A stretch of DNA of 64,000 nucleotides from Cerrena zonata (lineage: Eukaryota; Basidiomycota; Agaricomycetes; Polyporales; Cerrenaceae), in assembly GCA_038087015.1 (NCBI GenBank), contig JASBNA010000005.1, positions 1,984,001-2,048,000 on the forward strand, read 5' to 3'. The translations under genes were made by a program, and so were the position numbers. The notes under the pieces were generated by a model. It was not told where the DNA came from and ran no database searches. It saw only the letters and a list, made by a program, of their open reading frames with translations. Positions 7,759 to 60,903 of the stretch are shown one piece after another. The number at the start of each line of letters is the position of its first letter. Position 1 is the stretch's first letter.

Positions 7759-7837
7759 AGGTGCTACCAGGGTTCGAACCTGGGTTCCGGGAAAGTGAAG
7801 TCAAAATCCCGAGTGATAACCACTACACTATAGCACC
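7759..7837 (-). tRNA. tRNA-Gln (TTG anticodon), possible short intron
   Basis: On the minus strand the sequence folds as a cloverleaf. The acceptor arms GGTGCTA and TAGCACC pair; the D arm has the TAGTGTAGTGGTTATCACT form typical of eukaryotic tRNA-Gln; the T arm holds GGTTCGAACCC. The anticodon loop TTTTGAC gives anticodon TTG. The stem CGGGA/TCCCG encloses 14 bases instead of 7, so about 7 bases just 3' of the loop look like a minimal intron or an extended loop. The genomic 3' end lacks CCA, as expected. Confidence 0.85.
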
Positions 7838-36464: not shown

Positions 36465-36473
36465 TTACCGACA
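36465..36473 (+). repeat. Outer target-site duplication, left
   Basis: TTACCGACA directly precedes the element end TAGACTCGT and matches the nine bases at 56814-56822. Confidence 0.85.
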
Positions 36474-36486
36474 TAGACTCGTAAAA

Positions 36487-36565
36487 CCAGTCCACTCGCA
36501 AGCTGGACGCGCTTTCCTTTTGTGGATTCGGAGTTTGGAATGGCGCGAGCTTGCGAGCGGACTGG
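36487..36565. repeat. Subterminal hairpin in the left terminal repeat
   Basis: An 18-base arm at 36487-36504 (CCAGTCCACTCGCAAGCT) pairs with 36548-36565 with one mismatch and a loop of 43 bases. It begins 13 bases inside the element end. The mirror copy is at 56611-56689. Confidence 0.8.
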
Positions 36566-36730
36566 GCGAATTGGACACTGTTTTGGCGGGGTGCTCTTTG
36601 GCGCTCGTAAAAGTGTGGACTTAGTGAAATCAACGTTCACGCTCTTGGTGAGCACGATGGCCTTTACCTCGCAACCTACCCTACTCATAAGCAACATGTA
36701 CTTTACTCTATCATTACTATGAGGAAATGT

Positions 36731-39465
36731 CTACTTCGGTCTACTCTGTGTATGTTCCTAAGAAATTGACCCTCAAAATGGCGGTATTTATCTTGAAATA
36801 CAAGTGAACTCACTAAGTTAGACCTTGGTCCAGAGCATGTAGTTCCTGATGAACCAGTATCTGGTTGCATAGATGTATGTTGTTGAGCCTGAGATGGGAC
36901 AATATGAGGAGGTTCCGGAAGGTGGGAAGTCGGAGTTAAATGAGGAAATTGAAATGAATAGGGAAAGAGCGAGGGATATTGAAATGACGGAGGTGTGTTG
37001 AATGTAGAGTGATGTAGCATGCTCGACATGGAAGGATTTGGGGATGCTGACATGGAGGCAAGAGGTTGTGATGCATGAACTGGTGTATATGGGGTATGTT
37101 GAACAAATGGCACGGCGAAGCTTGAGGTTGACAGGGTGTGAGAGTGTGATGGCGCATGACTTGAAGTATGGAACTTAACGGGACGGTCTTGACCAGTACC
37201 CTGTTGTCCCGTACTGCTGGCATCTGTTCTCTCATTGATACGAAATCGCTTCGGACTCAGAGAGTCATCCTGCAGTGCTTTGGATGCTGGCATTCGTTTT
37301 CGAGCATTGGAGCTTGGCAATGGTTCAGCCTCGGGCTTCTCCTTCACGGATTCCTTTCGGAGTTTCTTGGGGTTTGGTACAAAAGGAATCTTGAGAGCGA
37401 CAACAAACGAGGTAAGCTCTGTTCCATAACGTTGCCACCATACCCAACTCTCTGATAGCAAGATAGCGACATTACCCTCAGAAAGAGGGCCGTGTGCTGA
37501 CAGTGTGGCTACCAGTTCATTGTTCAAGAGCGACTTTGCTTCGTACTGTGCGAGGGCATGATCACGCTCAAATATGTCTCGTCTCCACTGGCGAAGCTGA
37601 GACTGAATCTCGGGAACCGATTCTCCCTTCTTTGGGACACTTTGTTTTGATGCTTTACGTTGTATTCCTGGGCGTGTTGCATCAAATAGTGATGGGTCAC
37701 AGATGTCGCAGCATGGAACAGAAGGGACTGGCCCATAAAACTATCAGCATGCAGCAAGATCCGCTTGTTAACTTGGATATATTCCATACCTTCAAGTGAG
37801 GCTGCTGGTACATCAAACGCTTCAGCCCAAATCTTACGTCGACATGTGGTGCTTTGAACAAATGCCAGGAGACCTTCATCTGCCGCCCCAGGGTCAAGAA
37901 CAGGCGGTTGTCCTGTTGGTGAATTATCGAGCTTCTTGGTGCCTCCCCGATCGAGACCATGTTCACGTGCATATGTCTTTGATGTAGGGTGAGCCTTTGG
38001 TGTACGGGTACCTCTCCGAGTCTTGGCAACCTTTGACTTTGTTATATCTGACTCGCCTTTCTTGATTAGAGTCGAGAACAATGATCGTTCAGCAAGTAGG
38101 ATCGCCAAACCAATACGGCTCGATTTACGAGCAGCGCGACCTGCTCTTTGAATCCAGTTGGACAGGGTCTTCGGAAGTTTCCATTGTACAACAATGTCGA
38201 CATCGGGAATATTACAACCCTGTGAGTCATTAGTTTACCAGTCGCAACACCTTTCTTGAGTATATCACTTACCATACCGGCAGCATCAGTACAAACCATG
38301 ACACGAATCTTGCCATCGCGGAATGCATTCATTGCCTCTCGTCGGTAATCTGCTGACATAGTTGCGTTGAAGGGTCGAAAGAAATTGTGGGATGTGGGTG
38401 ACTGTTTGAGATCGGGATTTCGCTCATGCAGGACTTCCCGAAGGTGGTCAATGATTTCCATACTGACTGTGATGTTGTCCACGTAGATCCACGTTTTCTT
38501 GATGTTTGACCCTTCGTTAATTGTTTCAGGAAGTATGAAGTCCAGGTCACGATAGGAATTGAGAGGGTGTTCACATGCACGGACAACAATTGATACATTC
38601 GAGCGGTCATTACCGACATTGAGGAATCGACTGGAGCCTTTCGAGAACTGAAGTTTTCCGTGGATATCTCGACGTGCGCGTGATGTCAGGGTTGCTGTCA
38701 TAGCAATAACTGGTGTTCCCCTTGGTAGAAAGGCTCGGACGGTCCCAAGTGTCCCGTACTTTTTGCGGAAGTCAGCGCCCCAGTGAGAGATGCAGTGAGC
38801 CTCATTGACGACCATAGAAAGAATCCTTTTGCTGAAGTTGCCATTCCGCAGAACGCGGTTAATAAATGTTCGCGACTGAATCATTTCTGGTGAGATGAGA
38901 AGTATGCTGTGGTTTCCGGACACTAACTTCTACAGACACATCTTCATTGAGAGTAGCTGGATAAAATCATATAACGTACCTTTGCCATGCTCCAGGAACA
39001 CCCACCATTATTACTATTTACAGCAATAGCTTTAAGTCCGAAATCAGTTTGAAATGTCTCTACCATTTCTTCTTCGAGAGCTAATAATGGTGAAATTACA
39101 AGCGTGATTTTACCCTTGCTATTAGGCCAGAGATGGGGTCCTGCAGCTATAGCAGTCTTCCCGAAGCCTGTAGGGGCTTGTATAATCATGTCAACTCCCT
39201 CCAGCTGTGCTTGGACTCCAGCCAGTTGAAACGGTCGAGGCTCACTATCCCACCCATACTTCTCCTTCATCTTCTGAGCTAGGCTCTTCAGGTCATTGTC
39301 TGATAGCCGTGTTATTTTGGGGGGAAGAGTGTCTTGCAGAGGATGTTTTTGCGACCATTTAGAATGTGGAAGGTGGCGGGAGGGAGCCATAGGTGAACCA
39401 GTACGAGTTGAAGAGAATGAGCTTAGAGTAAGAGACACCGAGTCAGAGAGAGAATGATCGGGCAT
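36731..39465 (-). CDS. RecQ-like DNA helicase of the mobile element (left copy)
   Basis: Five exons on the minus strand (38980-39465, 38273-38929, 37790-38219, 36814-37727, 36731-36757) join in frame to 837 residues. Helicase order: RPFQ motif 0 (residues 77-80), Walker A APTGFGKT (97-104), motif II NEAH (204-207, where RecQ has DEAH), motif III MTAT, motif V CTDAAGMGCNIPD crossing an intron, and motif VI QRAGRAAR (405-412). Then follow a RecQ-type zinc cluster (CRRK at 507, then CCDIC at 530-534), a basic linker and a long Ser/Pro-rich tail with no known fold. It would unwind DNA in the nucleus, perhaps during transposition. It is divergent from the DUF6589-like gene with 89 bases between the start codons. 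Confidence 0.88.
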
Positions 39466-39554
39466 ATTCTAAGCCTTCATTCTGACTTCCTACAACCTAA
39501 AACATTATTTCAACAAGGTAACTTCATTTTTCAACGCATTGCCCAGTTATTAAC
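39466..39554. promoter_or_regulatory. Shared divergent promoter (left copy)
   Basis: Only 89 bases separate the start codons of the helicase and DUF6589-like genes, so the promoter or the leaders must be shared or overlapping. No clear TATA box is seen. The mirror copy is 46766-46854. Confidence 0.55.
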
Positions 39555-42500
39555 ATGATATTAATTAGAATGACTTCCAAGTCTGAGTCGGGAAGTACAG
39601 ATACCAGCCCACTCACCGCCTGGCTTCAGAACCGCTTTTCCACCCCACTCTCAGAACCAGAGACAGATGAGGCTGACGGTGAACCAACAACACCATGCCC
39701 ACCATCCCGAGTCACCCAAACAGCGGATGTCAGCAGAAATCCCCTTTCCGGAGTTTCCGCACCTTTGAACCATTCTACAACAAGTCATACTCCTATCATA
39801 ACAGGAGATATCAGCGACATTGACACCTTTTCCTCACCAATTCGAGGCCGCACCAAGGCAGAGAAACGTGCCAGTAAGGCCAACAAGAAGGCAAAGAAAG
39901 CCGCTATTGCACTGGCTGAGAAAGAAGCTCAGAAAGCTCGTAAAAAAGCTGAAGTTGAGCACGCTCACGCACAAGCCATTGCGCTGAAGCATCACAGAAT
40001 ATGGGATGCCCTTGAATACCTGAAATCTCGACAACTCACAATTGGCGATCTACTTTTATTTGTTGTCAATCCTGAGAACTGGGCTGGGCGAGAACGACAT
40101 GAGGGGCTATTCAAGAAACCAACGCTCTTCCGTGAAGTTCTTGACTTCTTGGTATCAGCGCAAAGTAGTACCACCGCTCGCAACATTATACATGAGTGGT
40201 CCATGTCCTATACCAGCACCGTGCTGTCGAATGAAGCCAATACGATCACATCGAATGGAATACTACGTACGCAAAACAAGACAATAGGTGCTTCATTTGC
40301 ATTGGGTTTCGGCATCCTCAAGCTCTACGACCAAATCCACCACTATTGTCCCAACATGGTTCGCCTTTTGTTCGCTTTCTGTACCTCTGCAAAGCAAAAA
40401 AACATAGCATCGGACCAAGCAATGTTGAAGAAGAAACGAGTAAGTCATCAAGTCAATAATTTGAATATTAACCCTGAAGTATTGAGCTCACATATAGTTT
40501 ATTGCCTCCGCACTCCTCATCCTCCTCGGCGCACGAAGTCAGAAGAATAGTTATGCCCGGCAAGTCATTGGGCTCTACCTGTACGCTACTGGCGCACAGC
40601 GACAGGTATTCAGTGTTCTGTCACATCTTGGTGTGTCGTGTAGTTACAACACACTTGCTGGAAGCGGAACACACCAAAGTAATGGGGCAAGTCCATGTCC
40701 GAGTGAATCCGAGATAGTTTCCTCAACGGATGAGGATGAGGAGTTAGGAAAGGGAGTCAAGACAGCTTTCGGTACCAGACTGGCAGGGTCTGAGGTTGAC
40801 AGTGATAGGGATGATGCGAGTGGTACTAGCTCATGTGATAGCAACAAAGGTGAAGAGCAACAGACGAAACGATCAACATTGCACAAGAGAACTCCGGGTC
40901 GAAGTTCTCAGGATGGGCTCTTGAAACGACTTTCAGATGCTCTTCTCGATGCCGTTCGAACGCTTGCCTCCTCAGGTCTTCTAGCTCATGTTTATGACAA
41001 TATAAATATTGTTTTCAAGATTGCAGAACAAATACTAGGATGAAAGGACTCTCAAGAGAATGGTACCTGTGCCACAGTATTCCCATTGTTCAAAGCTACC
41101 AAGGACGATCTTCAGACCCAAGATCTACTAGACTCTGTTGATCAAGCCCCACCATTGCGCCTTGAGGACATCCTTCTCTCGCCTGACGAGAATAAACATC
41201 TTCATGCTTGTCTCCGTCACACCATTTTACGTGTCATCATCCAGCACAGTGGTGGCCGTTTTGATCATTTCAAGGATGATCTGGAACGTACAACACCTGT
41301 GACTGATCGAAAGATCGAGGTCCACAAAACCGATGTCCTACCTCTTCCTGCTATGCCCATTGATGAGTCAAGCACACTGGGTAATGCTACAGTCGTCAAT
41401 GAAATTTTCACAATACTCAAGTACAAACTTATATCCCCCAAATTCTTAAATATCCTCAGAATTCTATTTGGTGATCAACTCTCAGTTGCCCGTCTCCGAG
41501 GTGTCACTAACACTCGAGTTGGTCACGACAAGCCATCTCATGCACTACTCAACACGGTCCATGCCCCGGGTTTATTTCATTATCAGATTGCCTACACCGG
41601 AGCTACTATGGAGAACCACTGGGGTGATCCACAGGCGTATACTCGTGATCCTGGCTCATTGTGTTTTCACAACACTATCCTGGACCGCAAACCTATCATC
41701 ATGTCATCTCCCCCTCCATATCGCACATGCCGTGATCTTGTATTTGTCTCGTTATATGCCCGCATTTTTCGATGTCTAGAGTTGGTATCTGGAGTCGAGA
41801 ATCTTGACGAGCTAGCAAAGGAAACCTCATTTGAAGAACTCGAGGGCTACTGCTGCGAAATTCTGGACTGTTTTGCCAATCCAACTCTTGTCTCGGAGCT
41901 CCGTGATGAACGCGAGGAAGAATTGACTTCCAGTACTTCTGATTCAATTCCATCTACCGTGAAGACCGGTGATATGGTCTTCGAGAATGCATCGCTATTT
42001 CTACGTGATGCGCTTCTTCTTCGAGAGTTTACTGATTCCATCAAGATGGGCGACTCTGGTCGTATTTTCACTATGCTCAAAGTCATGACTCTAGCTTACC
42101 GTGGTGGTGGTCGTCCAAAATATGCGCACGAATGCCTTCATCAGATTCATAATCTCACACATGTCTGGCCAGAGAAACTACGGTGAGTCAATATAATGTC
42201 TGTGGGTTAGCATTACTCATATTCAACTCTAGTGGTGTAATTCTCAATAACTGGCTTGTGAACCCCACGGGCAAACCAAACGCAAATGTGCCTGTTGACT
42301 TACTGCAAGAACACATCAACTACTGGGTGAAAGTAAGAAGGTCCATCTTCATGTTTTATTTTTGGTATTAACGACAGTTTAAGGTTGTTTACAAGGCCCA
42401 TGGTAGCAACGCATCCTGGGAGTGGCTTGCTGTACTATCTCCTTGTATCGAAATTCTAAGGAAGCTCTCTACAGAGATCAATGCAGATCTCGGGTCACGT

Positions 42501-43025
42501 CAAGGCTCAAAACACACATCGCCCGACCTCGCAAATGACATTTCTGCCATCATCAAGTCATTGCGTGAATACCGTGTTTACGAAATCGAGCATGGCCGCG
42601 TTATTGATAGTGACAAGTCCTCGGTACCGAATATTGTTGCTTCTGGGCTCGAAGCATTACTGGGGCCATTGCGCGAGTACAATGACATGTTTCGGAAGCT
42701 CCAGGAACGCCGCCGAATGACACCTCTTATATATGAACCAGGTATGGTGCCTACTCATGCTCGCACCTCAAATATTCCCCCTTCTACATTGTCAGCGGCA
42801 ACAGACCCCCCAGCCACCATCCCCGACTCCCCAACACAGCCTTCTTTACAAACCAAACTGGCTCCCACACACGACACATATATCGAGGTTGGGAATTCCG
42901 ACTCGGAAGATGATTCCCATGATAGTACAAGTGCCGGAAGTCAAGATGAAGAGCTGGATTTATATGGAGATGACGAGCTGTTGCCCCATGTTGAGTCTGA
43001 GGATGTAGACTTAGATATGGACTGA
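39555..43025 (+). pseudogene. DUF6589-like putative transposase with in-frame stop (left copy)
   Basis: Four exons (39555-40439, 40498-42182, 42233-42332, 42384-43025) keep one frame of 1103 codons. The N-terminal part is Ser/Pro-rich, then a Lys/Ala coiled segment (about 95-135). The core opens with YLYATGAQRQVFSVLSHLG, continues with ENGTCATVFPLF, FGDQLSVARLRGV (Asp near 621) and GLFH (His near 656). It then has NNWLVNPTGKP and YKAHGSNASWEWL, and ends in an acidic tail. These blocks match what I remember of DUF6589 proteins, which are expanded in mushrooms. TGA at 41041-41043 interrupts the frame at codon 477, where CGA (Arg) would fit. A 57-base intron with a weak gtttat donor could remove it but would delete conserved-looking residues. 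Transposase role is inference from context. Confidence 0.75.
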
Positions 43026-43098
43026 ATGTTAATGTGTTTAGAGCTACAACATTGAAAGTGACTATTTCGAAATTTGGCTAAGTCCCCACTTTTCGTTG

Positions 43099-43107
43099 GC
43101 GCTAAAT
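43099..43107 (+). repeat. Inner target-site duplication, copy 1
   Basis: GCGCTAAAT lies here, its complement lies at 43213-43221, and a direct copy lies at 56703-56711 right after the CGAGTCTA end of the right element. It is the target of the nested insertion. Confidence 0.8.
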
Positions 43108-43212
43108 GCACCCAGCCAAAAGCGCGTCCAATTCGCCCAGCCGGTTCCTCACAGAAGAACCAAAGCGGAGCGGCGGAGTCCGAATGTGAGGAACTGGCTG
43201 GGAACGAGCCTA
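43108..43212 (-). repeat. 105-bp terminal segment at the palindrome centre (inverted)
   Basis: This is the outer part of the second terminal repeat, ending in the complement of TAGGCTCGT at 43212. A near-identical 102-base version is at 56712-56813 (it lacks AAG and has one C/T difference). It contains a hairpin with 18-base arms at 43136-43153 and 43185-43202. Its orientation gives mismatched duplications for both elements; turning it round restores both. Confidence 0.85.
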
Positions 43213-43294
43213 ATTTAGCGCCAACGAAAAGTGGGGACTTAGCCAAATTTCGAAATAGTCACTTTCAATGTTGTAGCTCTAAACACATTAACAT

Positions 43295-46200
43295 TCAGTC
43301 CATATCTAAGTCTACATCCTCAGACTCAACATGGGGCAACAGCTCGTCATCTCCATATAAATCCAGCTCTTCATCTTGACTTCCGGCACTTGTACTATCA
43401 TGGGAATCATCTTCCGAGTCGGAATTCCCAACCTCGATATATGTGTCGTGTGTGGGAGCCAGTTTGGTTTGTAAAGAAGGCTGTGTTGGGGAGTCGGGGA
43501 TGGTGGCTGGGGGGTCTGTTGCCGCTGACAATGTAGAAGGGGGAATATTTGAGGTGCGAGCATGAGTAGGCACCATACCTGGTTCATATATAAGAGGTGT
43601 CATTCGGCGGCGTTCCTGGAGCTTCCGAAACATGTCATTGTACTCGCGCAATGGCCCCAGTAATGCTTCGAGCCCAGAAGCAACAATATTCGGTACCGAG
43701 GACTTGTCACTATCAATAACGCGGCCATGCTCGATTTCGTAAACACGGTATTCACGCAATGACTTGATGATGGCAGAAATGTCATTTGCGAGGTCGGGCG
43801 ATGTGTGTTTTGAGCCTTGACGTGACCCGAGATCTGCATTGATCTCTGTAGAGAGCTTCCTTAGAATTTCGATACAAGGAGATAGTACAGCAAGCCACTC
43901 CCAGGATGCGTTGCTACCATGGGCCTTGTAAACAACCTTAAACTGTCGTTAATACCAAAAATAAAACATGAAGATGGACCTTCTTACTTTCACCCAGTAG
44001 TTGATGTGTTCTTGCAGTAAGTCAACAGGCACATTTGCGTTTGGTTTGCCCGTGGGGTTCACAAGCCAGTTATTGAGAATTACACCACTAGAGTTGAATA
44101 TGAGTAATGCTAACCCACAGACATTATATTGACTCACCGTAGTTTCTCTGGCCAGACATGTGTGAGATTATGAATCTGATGAAGGCATTCGTGCGCATAT
44201 TTTGGACGACCACCACCACGGTAAGCTAGAGTCATGACTTTGAGCATAGTGAAAATACGACCAGAGTCGCCCATCTTGATGGAATCAGTAAACTCTCGAA
44301 GAAGAAGCGCATCACGTAGAAATAGCGATGCATTCTCGAAGACCATATCACCGGTCTTCACGGTAGATGGAATTGAATCAGAAGTACTGGAAGTCAATTC
44401 TTCCTCGCGTTCATCACGGAGCTCCGAGACAAGAGTTGGATTGGCAAAACAGTCCAGAATTTCGCAGCAGTAGCCCTCGAGTTCTTCAAATGAGGTTTCC
44501 TTTGCTAGCTCGTCAAGATTCTCGACTCCAGATACCAACTCTAGACATCGAAAAATGCGGGCATATAACGAGACAAATACAAGATCACGGCATGTGCGAT
44601 ATGGAGGGGGAGATGACATGATGATAGGTTTGCGGTCCAGGATAGTGTTGTGAAAACACAATGAGCCAGGATCACGAGTATACGCCTGTGGATCACCCCA
44701 GTGGTTCTCCATAGTAGCTCCGGTGTAGGCAATCTGATAATGAAATAAACCCGGGGCATGGACCGTGTTGAGTAGTGCATGAGATGGCTTGTCGTGACCA
44801 ACTCGAGTGTTAGTGACACCTCGGAGACGGGCAACTGAGAGTTGATCACCAAATAGAATTCTGAGGATATTTAAGAATTTGGGGGATATAAGTTTGTACT
44901 TGAGTATTGTGAAAATTTCATTGACGACTGTAGCATTACCCAGTGTGCTTGACTCATCAATGGGCATAGCAGGAAGAGGTAGGACATCGGTTTTGTGGAC
45001 CTCGATCTTTCGATCAGTCACAGGTGTTGTACGTTCCAGATCATCCTTGAAATGATCAAAACGGCCACCACTGTGCTGGATGATGACACGTAAAATGGTG
45101 TGACGGAGACAAGCATGAAGATGTTTATTCTCGTCAGGCGAGAGAAGGATGTCCTCAAGGCGCAATGGTGGGGCTTGATCAACAGAGTCTAGTAGATCTT
45201 GGGTCTGAAGATCGTCCTTGGTAGCTTTGAACAATGGGAATACTGTGGCACAGGTACCATTCTCTTGAGAGTCCTTTCATCCTAGTATTTGTTCTGCAAT
45301 CTTGAAAACAATATTTATATTGTCATAAACATGAGCTAGAAGACCTGAGGAGGCAAGCGTTCGAACGGCATCGAGAAGAGCATCTGAAAGTCGTTTCAAG
45401 AGCCCATCCTGAGAACTTCGACCCGGAGTTCTCTTGTGCAATGTTGATCGTTTCGTCTGTTGCTCTTCACCTTTGTTGCTATCACATGAGCTAGTACCAC
45501 TCGCATCATCCCTATCACTGTCAACCTCAGACCCTGCCAGTCTGGTACCGAAAGCTGTCTTGACTCCCTTTCCTAACTCCTCATCCTCATCCGTTGAGGA
45601 AACTATCTCGGATTCACTCGGACATGGACTTGCCCCATTACTTTGGTGTGTTCCGCTTCCAGCAAGTGTGTTGTAACTACACGACACACCAAGATGTGAC
45701 AGAACACTGAATACCTGTCGCTGTGCGCCAGTAGCGTACAGGTAGAGCCCAATGACTTGCCGGGCATAACTATTCTTCTGACTTCGTGCGCCGAGGAGGA
45801 TGAGGAGTGCGGAGGCAATAAACTATATGTGAGCTCAATACTTCAGGGTTAATATTCAAATTATTGACTTGATGACTTACTCGTTTCTTCTTCAACATTG
45901 CTTGGTCCGATGCTATGTTTTTTTGCTTTGCAGAGGTACAGAAAGCGAACAAAAGGCGAACCATGTTGGGACAATAGTGGTGGATTTGGTCGTAGAGCTT
46001 GAGGATGCCGAAACCCAATGCAAATGAAGCACCTATTGTCTTGTTTTGCGTACGTAGTATTCCATTCGATGTGATCGTATTGGCTTCATTCGACAGCACG
46101 GTGCTGGTATAGGACATGGACCACTCATGTATAATGTTGCGAGCGGTGGTACTACTTTGCGCTGATACCAAGAAGTCAAGAACTTCACGGAAGAGCGTTG

Positions 46201-46765
46201 GTTTCTTGAATAGCCCCTCATGTCGTTCTCGCCCAGCCCAGTTCTCAGGATTGACAACAAATAAAAGTAGATCGCCAATTGTGAGTTGTCGAGATTTCAG
46301 GTATTCAAGGGCATCCCATATTCTGTGATGCTTCAGCGCAATGGCTTGTGCGTGAGCGTGCTCAACTTCAGCTTTTTTACGAGCTTTCTGAGCTTCTTTC
46401 TCAGCCAGTGCAATAGCGGCTTTCTTTGCCTTCTTGTTGGCCTTACTGGCACGTTTCTCTGCCTTGGTGCGGCCTCGAATTGGTGAGGAAAAGGTGTCAA
46501 TGTCGCTGATATCTCCTGTTATGATAGGAGTATGACTTGTTGTAGAATGGTTCAAAGGTGCGGAAACTCCGGAAAGGGGATTTCTGCTGACATCCGCTGT
46601 TTGGGTGACTCGGGATGGTGGGCATGGTGTTGTTGGTTCACCGTCAGCCTCATCTGTCTCTGGTTCTGAGAGTGGGGTGGAAAAGCGGTTCTGAAGCCAG
46701 GCGGTGAGTGGGCTGGTATCTGTACTTCCCGACTCAGACTTGGAAGTCATTCTAATTAATATCAT
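43295..46765 (-). pseudogene. DUF6589-like putative transposase with in-frame stop (right copy)
   Basis: This is the mirror of the gene at 39555-43025, with exons 45881-46765, 44138-45822, 43988-44087 and 43295-43936. The same TGA is present at 45277-45279, so the change is older than the split of the two copies, or was copied by conversion. The sequence is otherwise identical at protein level. If the stop is real, neither copy makes the full protein and mobility would depend on another copy. Confidence 0.75.
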
Positions 46766-46854
46766 GTTAATAACTGGGCAATGCGTTGAAAAATGAAGTT
46801 ACCTTGTTGAAATAATGTTTTAGGTTGTAGGAAGTCAGAATGAAGGCTTAGAAT
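46766..46854. promoter_or_regulatory. Shared divergent promoter (right copy)
   Basis: Mirror of 39466-39554, between the same two start codons. Confidence 0.55.
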
Positions 46855-48274
46855 ATGCCCGATCATTCTCTCTCTGACTCGGTGTCTCTTACTCTAAGCT
46901 CATTCTCTTCAACTCGTACTGGTTCACCTATGGCTCCCTCCCGCCACCTTCCACATTCTAAATGGTCGCAAAAACATCCTCTGCAAGACACTCTTCCCCC
47001 CAAAATAACACGGCTATCAGACAATGACCTGAAGAGCCTAGCTCAGAAGATGAAGGAGAAGTATGGGTGGGATAGTGAGCCTCGACCGTTTCAACTGGCT
47101 GGAGTCCAAGCACAGCTGGAGGGAGTTGACATGATTATACAAGCCCCTACAGGCTTCGGGAAGACTGCTATAGCTGCAGGACCCCATCTCTGGCCTAATA
47201 GCAAGGGTAAAATCACGCTTGTAATTTCACCATTATTAGCTCTCGAAGAAGAAATGGTAGAGACATTTCAAACTGATTTCGGACTTAAAGCTATTGCTGT
47301 AAATAGTAATAATGGTGGGTGTTCCTGGAGCATGGCAAAGGTACGTTATATGATTTTATCCAGCTACTCTCAATGAAGATGTGTCTGTAGAAGTTAGTGT
47401 CCGGAAACCACAGCATACTTCTCATCTCACCAGAAATGATTCAGTCGCGAACATTTATTAACCGCGTTCTGCGGAATGGCAACTTCAGCAAAAGGATTCT
47501 TTCTATGGTCGTCAATGAGGCTCACTGCATCTCTCACTGGGGCGCTGACTTCCGCAAAAAGTACGGGACACTTGGGACCGTCCGAGCCTTTCTACCAAGG
47601 GGAACACCAGTTATTGCTATGACAGCAACCCTGACATCACGCGCACGTCGAGATATCCACGGAAAACTTCAGTTCTCGAAAGGCTCCAGTCGATTCCTCA
47701 ATGTCGGTAATGACCGCTCGAATGTATCAATTGTTGTCCGTGCATGTGAACACCCTCTCAATTCCTATCGTGACCTGGACTTCATACTTCCTGAAACAAT
47801 TAACGAAGGGTCAAACATCAAGAAAACGTGGATCTACGTGGACAACATCACAGTCAGTATGGAAATCATTGACCACCTTCGGGAAGTCCTGCATGAGCGA
47901 AATCCCGATCTCAAACAGTCACCCACATCCCACAATTTCTTTCGACCCTTCAACGCAACTATGTCAGCAGATTACCGACGAGAGGCAATGAATGCATTCC
48001 GCGATGGCAAGATTCGTGTCATGGTTTGTACTGATGCTGCCGGTATGGTAAGTGATATACTCAAGAAAGGTGTTGCGACTGGTAAACTAATGACTCACAG
48101 GGTTGTAATATTCCCGATGTCGACATTGTTGTACAATGGAAACTTCCGAAGACCCTGTCCAACTGGATTCAAAGAGCAGGTCGCGCTGCTCGTAAATCGA
48201 GCCGTATTGGTTTGGCGATCCTACTTGCTGAACGATCATTGTTCTCGACTCTAATCAAGAAAGGCGAGTCAGAT

Positions 48275-48279
48275 ATAAC
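48275..48279 (+). repeat. Retrotransposon target-site duplication, left
   Basis: ATAAC sits just before the TG of the LTR and matches ATAAC at 55131-55135 right after the CA of the other LTR. Five bases is the usual length for Ty3/gypsy integrases. Confidence 0.9.
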
Positions 48280-48881
48280 TGTCAGCGACTAACTAAACTT
48301 ACCTGCCTAGGTTGCCACAAGAACTCTGTCTTAATACTTAAGTAACAATGTTAAGAGGTTAAAACCCAGATAAGTCTCAGTTAGGAGATTCAGGCAACCA
48401 CCTTGAATCAGGTGACTAAGAGTAGGAACTGTCTTAGTTGAATACTCCTATTGAGTAGTATCTCAAGTCTGGGGGATGTATTGCTGAAAACAAGGTCTAT
48501 ATATACTAATCGGCCTGTGGCTATGCACATGTCCTTCTAACCAATCAGATCACTCCTTCCCACGCCCTATACTAGATTACCAATCCAATATCTGCAACCA
48601 ACCAATAGCATTAAAGCCTCACTAGTCATGAGTCAGCCAACTTGATGATGAGTAAGCTAAACCGCCAAACTAACCAATAGCATAAAAGCCTCAAAGGCTG
48701 CTTGGTAATATACTATTGCACAAGCCAATAGCATAAAGAGCTCAGAGAATGCTGAGTAAGCTATGTACATTGGTAAGCATGTGATTATCGAGAGCTTAGT
48801 CATTCCACTTATATCGTGAGAACCTTAGACATGCTTAGTTATGAAAGTAGAAGTATTGCCAAAAACAGTAAGTTCATGACA
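48280..48881 (-). repeat. 3' LTR of the chromovirus
   Basis: 602 bases, TGTCAGCG at the left and CATGACA at the right on the plus strand, matching the LTR at 54529-55130. It contains TATATATA with a downstream AGACTTGAG (minus-strand reading), as in the other copy. Confidence 0.93.
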
Positions 48882-48899
48882 TTACCCCCTCCTTAAGGA
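48882..48899 (-). promoter_or_regulatory. Polypurine tract
   Basis: Read on the minus strand, AAGGAGGGGGTAA directly precedes the 3' LTR. This purine run is the expected primer site for plus-strand cDNA synthesis. Confidence 0.8.
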
Positions 48900-51800
48900 T
48901 CACGTCCTTGTGATCTTGCAAGAGTTCTTTCATATACACCATCTTCCCAGTTAAAAAGCCATGATGGGTACATTCTAGATGGTTTAGTTGGCCGAGTTAA
49001 ATGGTCCAGTTCTACAAATCTCAGCTGTTTAGGCTTAGGCCTGGGTGCACTTGGATGACGCTTATGAAAGTCCTTGACAGCTTTCTGAGCATTTGTCAAC
49101 TGTGATGCAGGTTCCCAAGTTTCCTCTGATCTAGGATAGCCTTCCCAGTGGATAAGATACTTTAATATTCCTCGTTCAACCTTTGAATCTAAAATACTTT
49201 CAACATTGTACTCCTCTTTACCTTCAATGATCTCAGGTAGGGGAGGGAGTGGCTTCTGTTGTGAGGAATAAATAGGTGCAACATATGGAGTTAGAACTAC
49301 TTCATTGAAAACAGGATGTATTGACCTCCAAGTACTTGGTAATTGAAGTCGATATGCAGACTTTCCTATCTTCTCTGTAATCTTAAATGGTCCATACCGC
49401 TTGTCTTCCAGTTTCTTCATTGGTCTGTTGGTCTTAATATTGTATCCTTCTAACCATACTCTATCTCCAACATCATATTTCCTGGATTCCTTCTTTGTAC
49501 GATCATAGTATCGTTTCATCATTTCTTGTGATGCTTTCATTGCAGATGCAGCCTCAGATTGAATTTCCTTGATACGATCTGCAAATTGCTCAGCTGTCAC
49601 ATTCTTGACTTCACGTCTTGCCTCATGACCTTTCCAAGGGTGAAAACCTTTGTTAACATAGAATGGAGAAAATCCTGTGGAAGACTGAGTTTTGTCATTA
49701 TAAGCAAAACCAGCCATTGGTAACCACTCAGCCCAATCATCTTGTCTGTGATTTACAAACACACGAAGATATTGCTCAATTTCTTGATTAACACGTTCAG
49801 TCTGTCCATCAGTTTGAGGATGATATGCTGTGGATGGATTTCCTTTAATACCTAGTAGCTCATAAAGAGCCTTAATGAACTTAGATACAAACTGGGGTCC
49901 TCTGTCACTGATAATCTTGCATGGAAGGCCATGATATACAAATACATGATCACGTAGTATTTTAGCCCAACCTTCTGATGTAAGTTCAATATTAGTTGGA
50001 AGAGGTATAATCTGCTTTCCACCAACATCAACTATTACCAGAATTGCATCATATCCTTGTGACTCTGGAAGAGGTCCAATCATATCAACAGAGATAATTT
50101 CCCAAGGCCGAGATGGAACTTCATTAGGTTGCAAGGGTGCTGCAAGCTTCTCATGATGGGGTTTAGTTCTTTGACAAACCTCACATCCAGTCACATAAGC
50201 TTGAACATCTGCACGGATCCTTGGCCACCAGTAATTGCGAGTAATCAGCTCATGAGTTTTATAACGACCAGGATGTCCAGCCATTATAGAATCATGATGT
50301 ATTTGAATGATCTCTTCACGAAGTTGTTTATCTCTTGGTACATAGATACGACCATGCCAGGTGATAATTCCATCAGATTCTTCCCATCCCTTCTCCTGAT
50401 TGACCAGTGCTTTTTCCACTGCACTGTCATGATTTCTTCCAAGTTTCTTGATTCGTTCTAGAAGACTATTATCCTGAACAATCTCAAATTCCATAGCTCT
50501 GAACCAGTAAGGTTTTAACAGTACCACATTCTCATTATCATCTTGACCTCGATAATGGTCTACACGCCTTGACAGAAGATCTGGCTTAGTGTGTAATCTC
50601 CCAGGTTTATGATGTAAACTGAAATGATAGTTTGCTAACTCTGTTACCCATCTAGCTTGCCTGCGATTGAGTTTCTGGGGTTTCCTAAAGTACTCAAGGT
50701 TCTTGTGGTCTGTCCAGATCTCAAACTCATGCTTTGCACCCATCAGATAGTGTCTCCACTCATCTAATGCAGTCATCATAGCTAAAAGTTCCTTGTCATA
50801 AATCTCATAATTGCGCTCAACAGCAGTCATAGATTTAGACAGAAAGGCAACAGGATGCCACTTCCCATCATGCATTTGAGACAAAACTGCTCCAACTGCA
50901 TAATCAGATGCATCACATTCCACCCGATAGGGTTCATCATCTGTAGGAATAACAAGAACAGGTGCTGTGATAATGCTTTCTTTGATCTGCTCAAAAGCCT
51001 TCTGTTGTGAATCTCCCCAAGTCCAATCTGCTTTTCCAGTCAGAGATGTCAATGGTCTTGCAATATCTCCATATCCTAGTATAAAGCGGCGATAGAAATT
51101 GGTAAATCCTAAAAATGCTTGAACATCTCTCTTGCATTTTGGCACAGGCCATTCATATACACCACGGACTTTGACAGGGTCCATTCCAACATGTCCTTCA
51201 GAGATGATCATTCCAAGATACTCAACTTGAGTTGCTTCAAACTCACACTTCTCTGCTTTGAGATATAACTTGTGCTCTCTGAGAATCTGTAATACTTTAC
51301 GAACAATATGTCTATGTTCCTCCAGAGTCTTGGTGAAGATCATAATATCATCTAGGTATACAACAACTACACCTTGATTAATCAAATCCTTAAACAAGTC
51401 ATTCATCAGAGTTTGGAAAGTAGCAGGTGAGTTTGTTAGTCCAAAGAACATAACAAGAGGTTCAAATAGTCCCCGGTTGGTTCTGAAAGCAGCTTTCCAT
51501 TCATCACCTTCCTTGATACGAACATTGTTATATCCCCAACGTACATCAAGCTTTGTAAAATACCTTGCTCCTTTCAACTTGTTCACTAGCTCTGGGATGA
51601 GAGGTATAGGATACCTATTCTTGATAGTCATCTCATTAAGTTTCCGATAATCCTGAACAGGTCTAAGACTTCCATCTTTCTTCTTGACAAAGAAGAATGG
51701 TGAAGCCATAGGAGATTTTGAAGGTCTGATACGTCCAGAGCGTAAATTCTCTTCTAAGAATTCATCAAGCATCTTCTGTTCTTCAAGGTTCAAAGGATAG

Positions 51801-52996
51801 ATCTTGCAATCTAGAGGCTTTGCACCTGGAGTCAGCTCAATCACATGATCCCATGGTCTATGTTCAGGCAGAGTATCAAATTCCTGCTTTGCAAATACCT
51901 CAGCAAAGTCCTGATAGTGCTCTGGTACTATACTCTCAAAGTCCTTCTTAATCTTGTCAGCATTACTTGCTTCTGCTAACTTAGAAGATATAGTTGCCTT
52001 TGCCCGAACATGTAACTTATCTAGACCAAGATAAGATCTGTAATCCATAAGAAAAAGCCTGTCTCCTTCCTCCAAGGGATTTTGACAGTCTTCTTCCTCA
52101 TCTTCATCAGGTTCCAAAATACGCATCATATAGCCACACTGAGAGGGACAGCGATCAAACTTGATAGTTCCTTCCTGCCAGTTAACAGAAGGGTTATGTA
52201 ACTTCAGCCAGTCATAACCAATAAATAAGTCAGACCTGCCAAGATCAGTCACAGAAAGTTCAATAACTTCTCTATGATCTTGAATCTTCATAACAAGTTC
52301 AACAAATTCAGTAATTGGTCCTGCCTTATTACGACTTCCATCTGCATTATAAACTGGTATAGGTCGAGGAGACTTTCTAGTTGTAAGACCATGTTTCTTG
52401 ACAAACTTTGTATCAATAGAAGATCCCATACAGCCACTATCAATAAGTGCTTGTACAGTGAAGGTGTTCAAATTGTCTAGTGTCTGAAGTACAGCTGACA
52501 CATCCAATTGATTACCACGACCTTCCCTGATGATACTTTTAGGTCTTGCATATTCCTCTAGCTCTGCTATTGCTTGCTCATCATTCAAACCAATAATCCT
52601 ATGAAGTTCTTCCCAAGTAGCCTCATGCTGTTTCTTTGGATGTACCCACATTCTGAATATACCAATACTTCTGCAGTTGTTCTCTCGCATACGCCTGAGA
52701 GTCCACACACTACCAAAAGGTTCTGCATATTCTTCCTTAGGTTTATCCTCAGGCTTGTCTAAAATAATCTCCTCATTCTGGGCATTACAGGGAATTAAGC
52801 ATGGCTCTGAACCACCACTGCGCTCATTATCTTGAGGAGACGCCCTAGCCTGAATTTTAGATACTATTTCAACAGCATGTTGACTGATTTGAGTCTGCAG
52901 CTGGGAAGCTACTGAGACTCGTTGCAAAAATCCAAATCCATTTGAGTTGGATTCTCTGGCATCTTGGCATGTACCAGCTCTCTGACCTGATCCCAT
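48893..52996 (-). CDS. pol: Chromovirus Pol polyprotein
   Basis: 1367 residues on the minus strand. Order: an aspartic protease with ALIDSGCMGSS (Asp near 186), then reverse transcriptase with the YLDDIMIF box (near 548). RNase H follows with DASDYAVGAVLSQ and the ELLAMMTALDEWRHYL helix. The integrase has a zinc-binding H-H-C-C region near 900-945 (GHPGRYKT..YWWPRI..C..C) and DDE core pieces SVDMIGPLP, SDRGPQF and NQEIEQYL. A C-terminal chromodomain follows (near 1260-1305, LIHWEGYPRSEETWEP). All key residues are present. The frame overlaps gag by 88 bases and is offset as for a -1 ribosomal frameshift; the listed ATG lies inside the overlap, so the true Pol is probably a Gag-Pol fusion. Confidence 0.96.
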   Translation of the reverse strand: MGSGQRAGTCQDARESNSNGFGFLQRVSVASQLQTQISQHAVEIVSKIQARASPQDNERSGGSEPCLIPCNAQNEEIILDKPEDKPKEEYAEPFGSVWTLRRMRENNCRSIGIFRMWVHPKKQHEATWEELHRIIGLNDEQAIAELEEYARPKSIIREGRGNQLDVSAVLQTLDNLNTFTVQALIDSGCMGSSIDTKFVKKHGLTTRKSPRPIPVYNADGSRNKAGPITEFVELVMKIQDHREVIELSVTDLGRSDLFIGYDWLKLHNPSVNWQEGTIKFDRCPSQCGYMMRILEPDEDEEEDCQNPLEEGDRLFLMDYRSYLGLDKLHVRAKATISSKLAEASNADKIKKDFESIVPEHYQDFAEVFAKQEFDTLPEHRPWDHVIELTPGAKPLDCKIYPLNLEEQKMLDEFLEENLRSGRIRPSKSPMASPFFFVKKKDGSLRPVQDYRKLNEMTIKNRYPIPLIPELVNKLKGARYFTKLDVRWGYNNVRIKEGDEWKAAFRTNRGLFEPLVMFFGLTNSPATFQTLMNDLFKDLINQGVVVVYLDDIMIFTKTLEEHRHIVRKVLQILREHKLYLKAEKCEFEATQVEYLGMIISEGHVGMDPVKVRGVYEWPVPKCKRDVQAFLGFTNFYRRFILGYGDIARPLTSLTGKADWTWGDSQQKAFEQIKESIITAPVLVIPTDDEPYRVECDASDYAVGAVLSQMHDGKWHPVAFLSKSMTAVERNYEIYDKELLAMMTALDEWRHYLMGAKHEFEIWTDHKNLEYFRKPQKLNRRQARWVTELANYHFSLHHKPGRLHTKPDLLSRRVDHYRGQDDNENVVLLKPYWFRAMEFEIVQDNSLLERIKKLGRNHDSAVEKALVNQEKGWEESDGIITWHGRIYVPRDKQLREEIIQIHHDSIMAGHPGRYKTHELITRNYWWPRIRADVQAYVTGCEVCQRTKPHHEKLAAPLQPNEVPSRPWEIISVDMIGPLPESQGYDAILVIVDVGGKQIIPLPTNIELTSEGWAKILRDHVFVYHGLPCKIISDRGPQFVSKFIKALYELLGIKGNPSTAYHPQTDGQTERVNQEIEQYLRVFVNHRQDDWAEWLPMAGFAYNDKTQSSTGFSPFYVNKGFHPWKGHEARREVKNVTAEQFADRIKEIQSEAASAMKASQEMMKRYYDRTKKESRKYDVGDRVWLEGYNIKTNRPMKKLEDKRYGPFKITEKIGKSAYRLQLPSTWRSIHPVFNEVVLTPYVAPIYSSQQKPLPPLPEIIEGKEEYNVESILDSKVERGILKYLIHWEGYPRSEETWEPASQLTNAQKAVKDFHKRHPSAPRPKPKQLRFVELDHLTRPTKPSRMYPSWLFNWEDGVYERTLARSQGRDP

Positions 52997-54021
52997 GTCA
53001 ATTCCTTTGCCATATCTGCAACATCCACTTGTGGAATATCTGCTTGTTCAACTTGTCTAACAACCTGTGGTTTTATTGGACAATTACGACTGATATGTCC
53101 TGGCTGACCACATCTGTAGCAGAGTCTTTCCTTTCTCAACCTATCTATGTCCATAGGCTGACCATGACCACCAAAGGTAACACCAGTACCATCTTTACGT
53201 GCAGGTACAGTTGTGTGATATCCTTCAGATCTTGTAAACCGCCCCATGTTAGTTGTGACTGTGGTGTTGGGTTTCACCACTAAAGGTCCTGACTTCATAC
53301 GACCTTGAAGTCTACGCTGCATGTTATCAATCCTGATAACCTTCTCTTTATAGCTCTCATAACTTGTAGGTAAAGAATCGCTATCATAGACTCTTTCTAT
53401 CAGGCGGTAACTGAGCCCTTGCTCAATCCTAGAGATCAAATACTGCTCATGATCTCCTCCAGTCCTGAATCCTGCTTGAACCATAAGTTGTTCAAACTCT
53501 ACAAAGTATTCATCTGCAGTGCGAGGTCCTTGCCTAAGAGCTTCCAACTTAGCTTGTGCATTCAACCTGAAGTTGGCATCCTTGAAGGACTTGTCCAATG
53601 CTTCCAAGAACTCCTTCCAGGTATCTGTAACAGTAACATCTCCAACATCATCTATCTTAGCTTCCAAATAGTTCTGAGCCCATTTGTCAGCAAACCCTTC
53701 TTTCATATAAGATAAGGTAAACAGAATCTTAGCTTGGTCTGTTGCAAACCTATCTCTCTTTTCAGCAATGAATAGAATAACTTGTCTTCTCCATGAAGCA
53801 TACTTAGCTTTGCTTCCATCAAAGACTGCTGGCTTAGCACCCTGAACTTTGGTGTCAGAGTCATTCATCATACTGAGTAACTGTAAAGGTTTGACTATTG
53901 GTGAGAGAAGTGGGGTAGAGGGATACTGAGGTGATAGATTGACTGAGGGTGTAGAGGGTTCTTCTGAATGTGCTTCTGAAGAAGGTGTTGAAGGTCTTGA
54001 GCGATACACAAAGTAATCCAC
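52909..54021 (-). CDS. gag: Chromovirus Gag with CCHC zinc knuckle
   Basis: 370 residues. The N-terminus is Ser/Thr/Pro-rich. The middle is the retrotransposon Gag capsid-like region with TWKEFLEALDKSFKD, DEYFVEFEQLMVQAGF and YLISRIEQGLS. A single zinc knuckle CYRCGQPGHISRNC follows near residue 300 and binds the element RNA. It forms the virus-like particle in the cytoplasm. The C-terminal coding end overlaps the start of pol. Confidence 0.94.
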   Translation of the reverse strand: MDYFVYRSRPSTPSSEAHSEEPSTPSVNLSPQYPSTPLLSPIVKPLQLLSMMNDSDTKVQGAKPAVFDGSKAKYASWRRQVILFIAEKRDRFATDQAKILFTLSYMKEGFADKWAQNYLEAKIDDVGDVTVTDTWKEFLEALDKSFKDANFRLNAQAKLEALRQGPRTADEYFVEFEQLMVQAGFRTGGDHEQYLISRIEQGLSYRLIERVYDSDSLPTSYESYKEKVIRIDNMQRRLQGRMKSGPLVVKPNTTVTTNMGRFTRSEGYHTTVPARKDGTGVTFGGHGQPMDIDRLRKERLCYRCGQPGHISRNCPIKPQVVRQVEQADIPQVDVADMAKELTWDQVRELVHAKMPENPTQMDLDFCNESQ

Positions 54022-54262
54022 GATGACAATAATATAACTAGGAAAAGATGATACACTGGTCCACCAGTACCTTTCTGGTTTCCGCCCACAGTGGGATCCT
54101 TAATAACTCGGTATCAAAGATCACTGTATCACAAATGAGACTATTTACCAAGGCTTGCTCCTTGATAAACCAAGTCACACAATTCCAAATCCAAGGTAAC
54201 AATAACTAGGTAACACTACTTGTTATCTTCTGATGATAACCAAGTAAACAAACAGTTTGACA

Positions 54263-54420
54263 CCACTAGAGGACTCCTGGCTCCGTGCTTTTGTCAAAAC
54301 TAAAACAATGATTGAACACCACTAGAGAACCCTTGGCTCCGTGCTATTGTTCTAATCACAAACTTATTGAATACCACTAGAGGACTCTTGGCTCCGTGCT
54401 TTTATTCAATAAACTCAGAC
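54263..54420 (-). repeat. Three imperfect tandem repeats in the chromovirus leader
   Basis: Three units of about 55-65 bases share CACTAGAG, then GGCTCCGTGCT followed by a T-rich stretch. They lie between the 5' LTR and gag, in the untranslated leader. A packaging or translation role is possible but not shown. Confidence 0.75.
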
Positions 54421-54515
54421 TAATAGAATTCCAACTAATTCTATATCTGACCACAAAGACACTTCCTTTATAACCAAAGGAGTAAAGGTATAAGAGGGTA
54501 AAGTAGGCAGTAGAG

Positions 54516-54527
54516 AGACTTGAGATA
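54516..54527 (-). promoter_or_regulatory. Primer-binding site, self-priming type
   Basis: On the minus strand, TATCTCAAGTCT lies one base downstream of the 5' LTR. It is the exact complement of AGACTTGAGATA at 54708-54719 inside the LTR, about 35 bases after TATATATA. It does not start with the TGG expected of a tRNA-primed site. Confidence 0.7.
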
Positions 54528-54528
54528 A

Positions 54529-55130
54529 TGTCAGCGACTAACTAAACTTACCTGCCTAGGTTGCCACAAGAACTCTGTCTTAATACTTAAGTAACAATGT
54601 TAAGAGGTTAAAACCCAGATAAGTCTCAGTTAGGAGATTCAGGCAACCACCTTGAATCAGGTGACTAAGAGTAGGAACTGTCTTAGTTGAATACTCCTAT
54701 TGAGTAGTATCTCAAGTCTGGGGGATGTATTGCTGAAAACAAGGTCTATATATACTAATCGGCCTGTGGCTATGCACATGTCCTTCTAACCAATCAGATC
54801 ACTCCTTCCCACGCCCTATACTAGATTACCAATCCAATATCTGCAACCAACCAATAGCATTAAAGCCTCACTAGTCATGAGTCAGCCAACTTGATGATGA
54901 GTAAGCTAAACCGCCAAACTAACCAATAGCATAAAAGCCTCAAAGGCTGCTTGGTAATATACTATTGCACAAGCCAATAGCATAAAGAGCTCAGAGAATG
55001 CTGAGTAAGCTATGTACATTGGTAAGCATGTGATTATCGAGAGCTTAGTCATTCCACTTATATCGTGAGAACCTTAGACATGCTTAGTTATGAAAGTAGA
55101 AGTATTGCCAAAAACAGTAAGTTCATGACA
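54529..55130 (-). repeat. 5' LTR of the chromovirus
   Basis: 602 bases, same sequence as 48280-48881. The TATA box on the minus strand is 54747-54754 and the predicted transcript start is near 54719, giving U3 of about 411 bases and R-U5 of about 191 bases. Confidence 0.93.
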
Positions 55131-55135
55131 ATAAC
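55131..55135 (+). repeat. Retrotransposon target-site duplication, right
   Basis: ATAAC, matching 48275-48279. Confidence 0.9.
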
Positions 55136-56702
55136 AAAGTCAAAGGTTGCCAAGACTCGGAGAGGTACCCGTACACCAAAGGCTCACCCTACATCAAAGA
55201 CATATGCACGTGAACATGGTCTCGATCGGGGAGGCACCAAGAAGCTCGATAATTCACCAACAGGACAACCGCCTGTTCTTGACCCTGGGGCGGCAGATGA
55301 AGGTCTCCTGGCATTTGTTCAAAGCACCACATGTCGACGTAAGATTTGGGCTGAAGCGTTTGATGTACCAGCAGCCTCACTTGAAGGTATGGAATATATC
55401 CAAGTTAACAAGCGGATCTTGCTGCATGCTGATAGTTTTATGGGCCAGTCCCTTCTGTTCCATGCTGCGACATCTGTGACCCATCACTATTTGATGCAAC
55501 ACGCCCAGGAATACAACGTAAAGCATCAAAACAAAGTGTCCCAAAGAAGGGAGAATCGGTTCCCGAGATTCAGTCTCAGCTTCGCCAGTGGAGACGAGAC
55601 ATATTTGAGCGTGATCATGCCCTCGCACAGTACGAAGCAAAGTCGCTCTTGAACAATGAACTGGTAGCCACACTGTCAGCACACGGCCCTCTTTCTGAGG
55701 GTAATGTCGCTATCTTGCTATCAGAGAGTTGGGTATGGTGGCAACGTTATGGAACAGAGCTTACCTCGTTTGTTGTCGCTCTCAAGATTCCTTTTGTACC
55801 AAACCCCAAGAAACTCCGAAAGGAATCCGTGAAGGAGAAGCCCGAGGCTGAACCATTGCCAAGCTCCAATGCTCGAAAACGAATGCCAGCATCCAAAGCA
55901 CTGCAGGATGACTCTCTGAGTCCGAAGCGATTTCGTATCAATGAGAGAACAGATGCCAGCAGTACGGGACAACAGGGTACTGGTCAAGACCGTCCCGTTA
56001 AGTTCCATACTTCAAGTCATGCGCCATCACACTCTCACACCCTGTCAACCTCAAGCTTCGCCGTGCCATTTGTTCAACATACCCCATATACACCAGTTCA
56101 TGCATCACAACCTCTTGCCTCCATGTCAGCATCCCCAAATCCTTCCATGTCGAGCATGCTACATCACTCTACATTCAACACACCTCCGTCATTTCAATAT
56201 CCCTCGCTCTTTCCCTATTCATTTCAATTTCCTCATTTAACTCCGACTTCCCACCTTCCGGAACCTCCTCATATTGTCCCATCTCAGGCTCAACAACATA
56301 CATCTATGCAACCAGATACTGGTTCATCAGGAACTACATGCTCTGGACCAAGGTCTAACTTAGTGAGTTCACTTGTATTTCAAGATAAATACCGCCATTT
56401 TGAGGGTCAATTTCTTAGGAACATACACAGAGTAGACCGAAGTAGACATTTCCTCATAGTAATGATAGAGTAAAGTACATGTTGCTTATGAGTAGGGTAG
56501 GTTGCGAGGTAAAGGCCATCGTGCTCACCAAGAGCGTGAACGTTGATTTCACTAAGTCCACACTTTTACGAGCGCCAAAGAGCACCCCGCCAAAACAGTG
56601 TCCAATTCGCCCAGTCCGCTCGCAAGCTCGCGCCATTCCAAACTCCGAATCCACAAAAGGAAAGCGCGTCCAGCTTGCGAGTGGACTGGTTTTACGAGTC
56701 TA

Positions 56703-56813
56703 GCGCTAAATGCACCCAGCCAAAAGCGCGTCCAATTCGCCCAGCCGGTTCCTCACAGAACCAAAGCGGAGCGGCGGAGTCCGAATGTGAGGAACCGGCT
56801 GGGAACGAGCCTA
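56703..56813 (+). mobile_element. Displaced terminal piece of the host element
   Basis: It begins with GCGCTAAAT (second copy of the inner target duplication) and ends GAGCCTA, the outer end of the second terminal repeat. It carries a perfect 18-base-arm hairpin (56740-56757 with 56786-56803). It is the 102-base end cut off from the left element by insertion of the right one. Confidence 0.82.
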
Positions 56814-56822
56814 TTACCGACA
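56814..56822 (+). repeat. Outer target-site duplication, right
   Basis: TTACCGACA, matching 36465-36473. Confidence 0.85.
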
Positions 56823-59136: not shown

Positions 59137-59762
59137 TCAATAGCTGTAACCGGGACCAGGCCGCCAGGCCGCAGATCGGGTATTGGGGACAGAGTAACCA
59201 GCGTTGCCAGTTCTCATATATCCCCAGCCTCCCAAGCCCATCATAGACTCGTAAGTCTGTACGGCATGGTCATTGCTTTGATAGTTGGAACGAGACTTCT
59301 CAAGCAAGGAGTTGAGATAGTCGATTTGTTTTTCCAACATTTGGATATTGGAAAGACCTTCGTCGCGAACGGAGATCAAGAAGCGGTGGATGAGATGGAC
59401 GGTCTCGGTGTCCATTGACCTGTGTATCTGATTCTCAGGGGTGTAAGGTGTAGTCTGCATACAACTCGAATTAGGACACGCATGTTATGCAGCATAAGGG
59501 ATACTTAGTAACTTACGGGGTAAATGCACCATCCTGTTGTGTCGGTGCTCTGCCATTGAGGGTAGAAATTCGGGTCCTCGCCGACGTTTATGAATGTCTT
59601 GTGAGCATAAGACTCCGTCTGTCCGGCAAGGTCTAACGCTGATGAGTTCGAAGTAACTCGCTCATGTAGGGTGACCACCGGGGACGTGATTGTGTTAGAG
59701 TAGCTAGGGAATGGTCGGACTTCGGTGTCTTCGGCGGAGGGCTGAATATACGATGAGGACAT
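59137..59762 (-). CDS. Small helical protein of unknown family (member A)
   Basis: Two exons (59517-59762 and 59137-59454) give 187 residues. The first half is Ser/Thr-rich and probably unfolded. The second half carries a helical block, HRFLISVRDEGLSNIQMLEK, followed by another helix and a Gly/Tyr-rich end. A related block is in the genes at 60904 and 62818. There is no signal peptide or known domain. The start is supported by the shared promoter and leader with the divergent neighbour at 60904, whose ATG sits at the same place. Function unknown. Confidence 0.6.
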
Positions 59763-59767
59763 AGGAT

Positions 59768-59885
59768 AAGTACACGTAGTCGTAGATCGGTGGCGAGCAA
59801 GTGCTAGGTAGTTGAGGTATTTCTGTTTCTCAAAGACATGCCAGTGGTATTTATATATGTATGCGTAGGTTCGACGTACAGTATT
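59768..59885 (-). promoter_or_regulatory. Conserved promoter and leader of member A
   Basis: Read on the minus strand: AACCTACGCATACATATATA, then GTCTTTGAGAAACA, then CTAGCACTTGCTCGCCACC and TCTACGACTACGTGTAC right before the ATG. The same blocks precede the gene at 60904 on the other strand. Confidence 0.75.
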
Positions 59886-60784: not shown

Positions 60785-60903
60785 CGAGCTCGTATGGATC
60801 AAGTGCTGTACGTTGAACCTACGCATACATATATAAACACGATGTCTTTGAGAAACACCTAGCACTTGCTCGCCACCGATCTACGACTACGTGTACATAC
60901 CCC
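60785..60903 (+). promoter_or_regulatory. Conserved promoter and leader of member B
   Basis: TACGTTGAACCTACGCATAC with a following TATATAAA, then GTCTTTGAGAAACA, CTAGCACTTGCTCGCCACC and CTACGACTACGTGTAC end at the ATG. It is an inverted copy of the region at 59768-59885, with only one short insertion difference in the leader. Confidence 0.75.

Follow-up and report, generated by a model that had tools for sequence, protein, structure and literature searches.

What kind of element forms the large inverted-repeat structure at positions 36465–56822 of the DNA analysed here, and which of its genes would move it? The window is a 64,000-nucleotide stretch (bases 1984001–2048000 of a 2.07-Mb contig) from the 55.5-Mb genome of Cerrena zonata, a wood-rotting basidiomycete. 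A first-pass annotation had proposed a candidate new DNA transposon family that pairs a RecQ-like helicase with a DUF6589-like protein. We found that the structure consists of one DNA transposon, present in two copies as inverted repeats. We consider it quite likely that this is an AcademH-kind DNA transposon with the DUF6589 protein as its DDE transposase, the RecQ-like helicase as an accessory, and the insertion history set out below.

The two copies are 6736 and 6739 bp long, in keeping with the 6.74-kb unit first described, and their inverted arms are 100% identical over 5067 nt (38041–43107 / 43213–48279) and over 1572 nt (36474–38045 / 55131–56702). Copy 1 spans 36474 to 56813, and the ends of the transposon, TAGACTCGT on the left and ACGAGCCTA on the right, were confirmed, as were terminal repeats of approximately 150 bp that match each other imperfectly. 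The features of the structure are as follows.

36465–36473, no strand: outer target-site duplication, left copy, sequence TTACCGACA
36474–43107, plus: copy 1 up to the insertion point of copy 2 in the right terminal repeat; left end TAGACTCGT
36474–36630, plus: terminal inverted repeat at the left end, roughly 150 bp, matching the right one imperfectly; inner limit approximate
36703–39465, minus: RecQ-like helicase gene of copy 1
39555–43025, plus: transposase-candidate gene (DUF6589) in copy 1
43099–43107, no strand: left copy of the inner target-site duplication, sequence GCGCTAAAT; lies in the right-hand terminal repeat of copy 1
43108–43212, no strand: right end of copy 2, 105 nt, inverted; loop of the palindrome
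43108–56702, minus: copy 2, reversed, broken by a long terminal repeat (LTR) retrotransposon
48280–55130, no strand: LTR retrotransposon in copy 2; LTRs 48280–48881 and 54529–55130, 602/602 identical; 5-bp duplication ATAAC; open reading frames (ORFs) on the minus strand
56703–56711, no strand: inner target-site duplication GCGCTAAAT, right copy
56712–56813, plus: final 102 bp of copy 1, closing with GGAACGAGCCTA
56814–56822, no strand: outer target-site duplication TTACCGACA, right copy

Two independent 9-base duplications had been claimed, and both are perfect, TTACCGACA on either side of copy 1 and GCGCTAAAT on either side of copy 2; the second site is now refined: it is copy 1's own right terminal repeat. 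Copy 2 lies on the reverse strand, beginning at 56702, and is a reversed, self-nested insertion in that repeat, because the GCGCTAAAT site, located roughly 100 bp inside copy 1's right end, flanks copy 2 on both sides. The 105-nt centre of the palindrome (43108–43212) is bordered by GCGCTAAAT and its reverse complement, and runs in the orientation opposite to that expected of a plain nested insertion; either a flip by recombination of the perfect arms or a fault in the assembly would account for this. Joined to the left arm, the centre yields a right terminal repeat without interruption, so that 43099–43212 provides the internal empty-site sequence for the nested insertion. The LTR retrotransposon that splits copy 2 is 6.85 kb long, carries a chromodomain and is a recent insertion.

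Judged from sequence, the element is mobile, as had been proposed, because the window copies are identical over 6.6 kb yet differ in their 9-bp duplications. The absence of any difference between the copies over this length suggests recent activity, or gene conversion that homogenised them. Elsewhere in the genome, related ends and 9-bp duplications recurred. Ten places had both terminal regions recognisable, and seven of them showed a perfect 9-bp duplication and TAG or CAG ends. These seven comprise the two window copies and five further places: C46:107184–113492 (duplication GGGGACAGA, ends CAGGCTCCTGAACC, terminal repeats of 341 bp with 99% identity); a sibling of it on contig C4 with identical ends (duplication CCTCTTCTC); C110:50400–56299 (duplication ATTTTGAAA); C1:1281626–1287873 (duplication GGTGATAGG, TAG at both ends, the sole one to match exactly of about 30,000 end pairs compared under a looser end rule); and a miniature derivative on C62. 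The miniature is 138 bp long and carries its own duplication, GTCATCGTG; because it consists of the two ends alone, the ends suffice for movement.

Other loci gave partial or negative results. When duplications of 9 or 10 bp with at most one mismatch were sought next to matching ends, nothing convincing emerged on C3, C14, C10, C26 (two loci), C62 and C1, the C1 case above being resolved afterwards. An element at C62:129856–137639, with a DUF6589 gene, a helicase gene and terminal repeats of about 905 bp (99.5% identical), showed no recognisable 9-bp duplication, and neither did a short derivative on C6 with differing flanks, in which both ends were recognisable and the right one was altered. 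The flanks also differed at two facing ends 7.2 kb apart, C62:125002 (left-type) and C62:117772 (right-type); the former had one 9-mer with one mismatch, at no recognisable end. Single ends were found on C3 and C65 (left) and on C12 (right). The stretches examined around the left ends C26:141354, C27:542611, C26:388030, C65:59321 and C5:155905, and around a right-end fragment on C36, contained no matching second end with a duplication. At C26:141354, the left end of the window family is followed by sequence resembling a late part of a DUF6589 reading frame; the locus is perhaps a derivative with an internal deletion or a rearrangement. Copies of the two genes in contexts with no shared ends had been named as evidence that would tell against a transposon; none was found where the locus could be resolved, and ends were not located at many DUF6589 loci (C37, C48, C77, C14, C10, C4 near 2116 kb and the other C26 loci).

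The two genes of the element are divergent, with starts at 39465 (minus) and 39555 (plus) and the 89 bases between them that the first-pass annotation had given. The proposed exons of the DUF6589 gene are 39555–40439, 40498–42182, 42233–42332 and 42384–43025 (plus), encoding a product of 1103 residues with one in-frame stop counted as a residue. One exon alone matched PF20231 (DUF6589) with an E-value of 4.2e-79, and this bore out the family assignment. The proposed exons of the helicase gene are 39465–38980, 38929–38273, 38219–37790 and 37727–36703 (minus), the last of these and its end being uncertain. Its product has a Walker A motif (GFGKT), matches PF00270 (E 2.5e-21) and PF00271 (E 3.5e-18), and contains the expected zinc cluster in the form of a RecQ-like Cys cluster. 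Its best solved relative was human RECQ5 (E 1.7e-29).

Damage may affect both window genes, and it is the same in the two copies. An in-frame TGA interrupts the DUF6589 gene at 41041, inside the identical arms; therefore the window copies are probably not autonomous. The public protein of the element, QCA50_005491 (P0001) of Cerrena zonata, begins at a later ATG than the proposed start and is without 19 residues (window 40990–41046), among them the in-frame stop and the first aspartate of the proposed catalytic triad; these 19 were presumably treated as a predicted intron. Uninterrupted frames across the full DUF6589 domain occur elsewhere in the genome, for example on C10. Motif II of the helicase, at 38809, reads NEAH in both copies; RecQ helicases usually have DEAH. 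Among related helicases in the genome, those on C3 and C62 have DEAH, that on C14 has NEAH, and those on C46, C10 and C1 have other variants.

We then asked how constant the pairing is. The profile and exon searches of the genome score only the best candidates, and the counts of loci and matches are lower bounds. PF20231 gave at least 38 matches in at least 20 loci, and the window helicase exon gave at least 20 matches. A RecQ-like helicase match lay at most 2.5 kb away at 16 of the 20 DUF6589 loci found, and 16 of the 20 helicase matches found fell at DUF6589 loci; by our own arithmetic, fewer than 0.1 such pairs would be expected by chance. No helicase match was found within 2.5 kb at the remaining four loci, all on contig C26. 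The helicase gene lies on the strand opposite the DUF6589 gene, in a divergent order in five pairs (the two window copies, C3, C65 and C110) and in a convergent order in 11. The helicase is thus a recurring partner of the DUF6589 gene, and may well have the accessory role first proposed for it. One might suppose instead that the two are ordinary host genes copied as a segment, and the names of the listed DUF6589 relatives, nearly all "hypothetical" or "uncharacterized", would suit that idea. We give it next to no credence in view of the terminal inverted repeats, the perfect 9-bp duplications at unrelated sites, the 138-bp derivative of ends alone with its own duplication, and the gene pairs at 16 loci.

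That the DUF6589 protein is the transposase of the element, that its fold is RNase H-like and that the aspartate of GDQ sits in the active site all gained support from structure prediction and residue conservation. AlphaFold models of two DUF6589 proteins resemble DDE transposases. Foldseek alone gave no significant match for the models, and a viral structure library gave none at E 0.001. DDE recombinases led the lists of a second look, which do not exclude families missing from them, and Hermes (PDB 4d1q, 6dww, 8sjd) was the closest solved fold, with 7–10% identity. A triad of D, D and E is conserved in an alignment of 240 DUF6589 relatives (the best 120 of 328 matches and the best 120 of 174), which fall into two clades of 120 each,, and is proposed in the window protein as D462 (40996), D621 (41473) and E883 (42309). 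The glutamate of a KYAHE motif (E527 in P0004) was rejected as the third catalytic residue, as it is E in 118/120 relatives of the first clade and Y is found in 115/120 of the second. Unlike E527, E570 of P0004 is conserved in both clades. To judge from the first and last aligned residues, it lies about where the alignments place the catalytic glutamates of Hermes, the P element and RAG. The predicted fold is thus not unrelated to RNase H, and the DUF6589 protein is very probably the DDE transposase of the element.

Hermes is a hAT transposase. It has an RNase H core into which a large block of helices is inserted ahead of the final catalytic residue, and the DUF6589 models share this topology. 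However, hAT elements make 8-bp duplications, whereas all seven resolved cases of the window family have 9 bp; to our knowledge, hAT elements carry no helicase. The MULE transposase domain of MuDR, PF10551 (accession as given in PMC8290104), was not among the matches of the window exon at E up to 1, nor among those of P0003, P0010, P0023 and a C10 ORF at E up to 0.1.

Terminal inverted repeats are a feature of the AcademH group, and are matched by the window element (about 150 bp, imperfect) and by the C46 element (341 bp, 99%). The defining paper of the group is reportedly Kojima 2020 (Mob DNA 11:15). In the available parts of later papers, AcademH is described as making 9- or 10-bp duplications and encoding a helicase (PMC10045372), and as a low-copy group of Basidiomycota, Ascomycota and Mucoromycota (PMC10799480). 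Fungal Academ copies with PF00270 / recQ_fam domains, often annotated as host genes, were described in 2019, again as far as the available text goes (PMC6416283). The window element is likewise a helicase-encoding DNA transposon of Basidiomycota with 9-bp duplications and a recQ_fam-type helicase domain. By this comparison of published descriptions, from which we infer homology of DUF6589 to the Academ transposase, the element would be a new member of the AcademH kind and not a new kind of transposon; to that extent, the newness claimed for the family was not supported.

Two other placements were weighed. KolobokH, according to the available part of PMC9587614, is a lineage found only in fungi that also encodes a RecQ helicase, and it therefore shares with the window family the combination of a fungal DDE transposon and such a helicase. 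In the same source, Kolobok elements make TTAA 4-bp duplications and have 5'-RR termini, whereas here none of the seven resolved duplications is TTAA, all seven are 9 bp, and the ends are 5'-TAG or 5'-CAG. The TTAA duplications speak against KolobokH, and we regard this placement as very improbable. Alternatively, DUF6589 could define its own DDE superfamily apart from Academ, with a hAT/P-like fold, a RecQ-like partner gained independently and at least two gene orders, the 9-bp duplication being a convergence. The likeness to AcademH is one of description, and the two gene orders (five divergent, 11 convergent) show that the pairing was rearranged; both points favour a separate superfamily. 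Against it, a helicase, a 9- or 10-bp duplication and occurrence in Basidiomycota together make up the description of AcademH in the available parts of the later papers, and recQ_fam helicase domains are described in fungal Academ copies. We consider a separate superfamily unlikely; if it were true, many hypothetical DUF6589 and RecQ-like genes of mushrooms would be accounted for.

Under the preferred AcademH-kind reading, the element would probably move by cut-and-paste. The DUF6589 protein would bind the TAG- or CAG-ended terminal inverted repeats, and its D, D, E triad, carried by an RNase H fold, would cleave the ends and attach them to target strands with a 9-base stagger, giving 9-bp duplications. 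The RecQ-like helicase would act as an accessory, probably opening or remodelling the ends or the joined intermediate. In the window, copy 1 would have inserted at TTACCGACA, and a second copy, reversed, at GCGCTAAAT in the right terminal repeat of copy 1, creating a very large palindrome. The perfect arms would have recombined, flipping the 105-bp centre, and the LTR retrotransposon would have inserted into copy 2.

The window also contains features outside the element. A host gene for the catalytic subunit of DNA polymerase epsilon (POL2_thumb, DUF1744, zf-DPOE) lies upstream at 25114–29969, and a tRNA-Lys (anticodon TTT) at 7758–7837 on the minus strand. A pair of 67-nt inverted repeats (59743–59809 / 60857–60923), 93% complementary and about 1 kb apart, is perhaps a small element.

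The window protein is a member of PF20231, which Pfam describes as a family of unknown function. The name DUF6589 was found in no paper of the literature searched, and PF20231 only in unrelated work; the available main text of PMC12730594 mentions neither Academ nor RecQ. No "transposase" occurs among the names as listed for the 240 relatives, one of which is without a name and one of which is called PRP28 helicase. Because neither this search nor these names use it, the designation of PF20231 as a transposase may be new, even if elements of this kind are already known. A DDE transposase would be a testable function for this Pfam family, and DUF6589 genes and their adjoining helicase genes could be catalogued as transposon genes. 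The ends of the family, its miniature derivative and the proposed triad offer a handle on why such a transposon carries a helicase.

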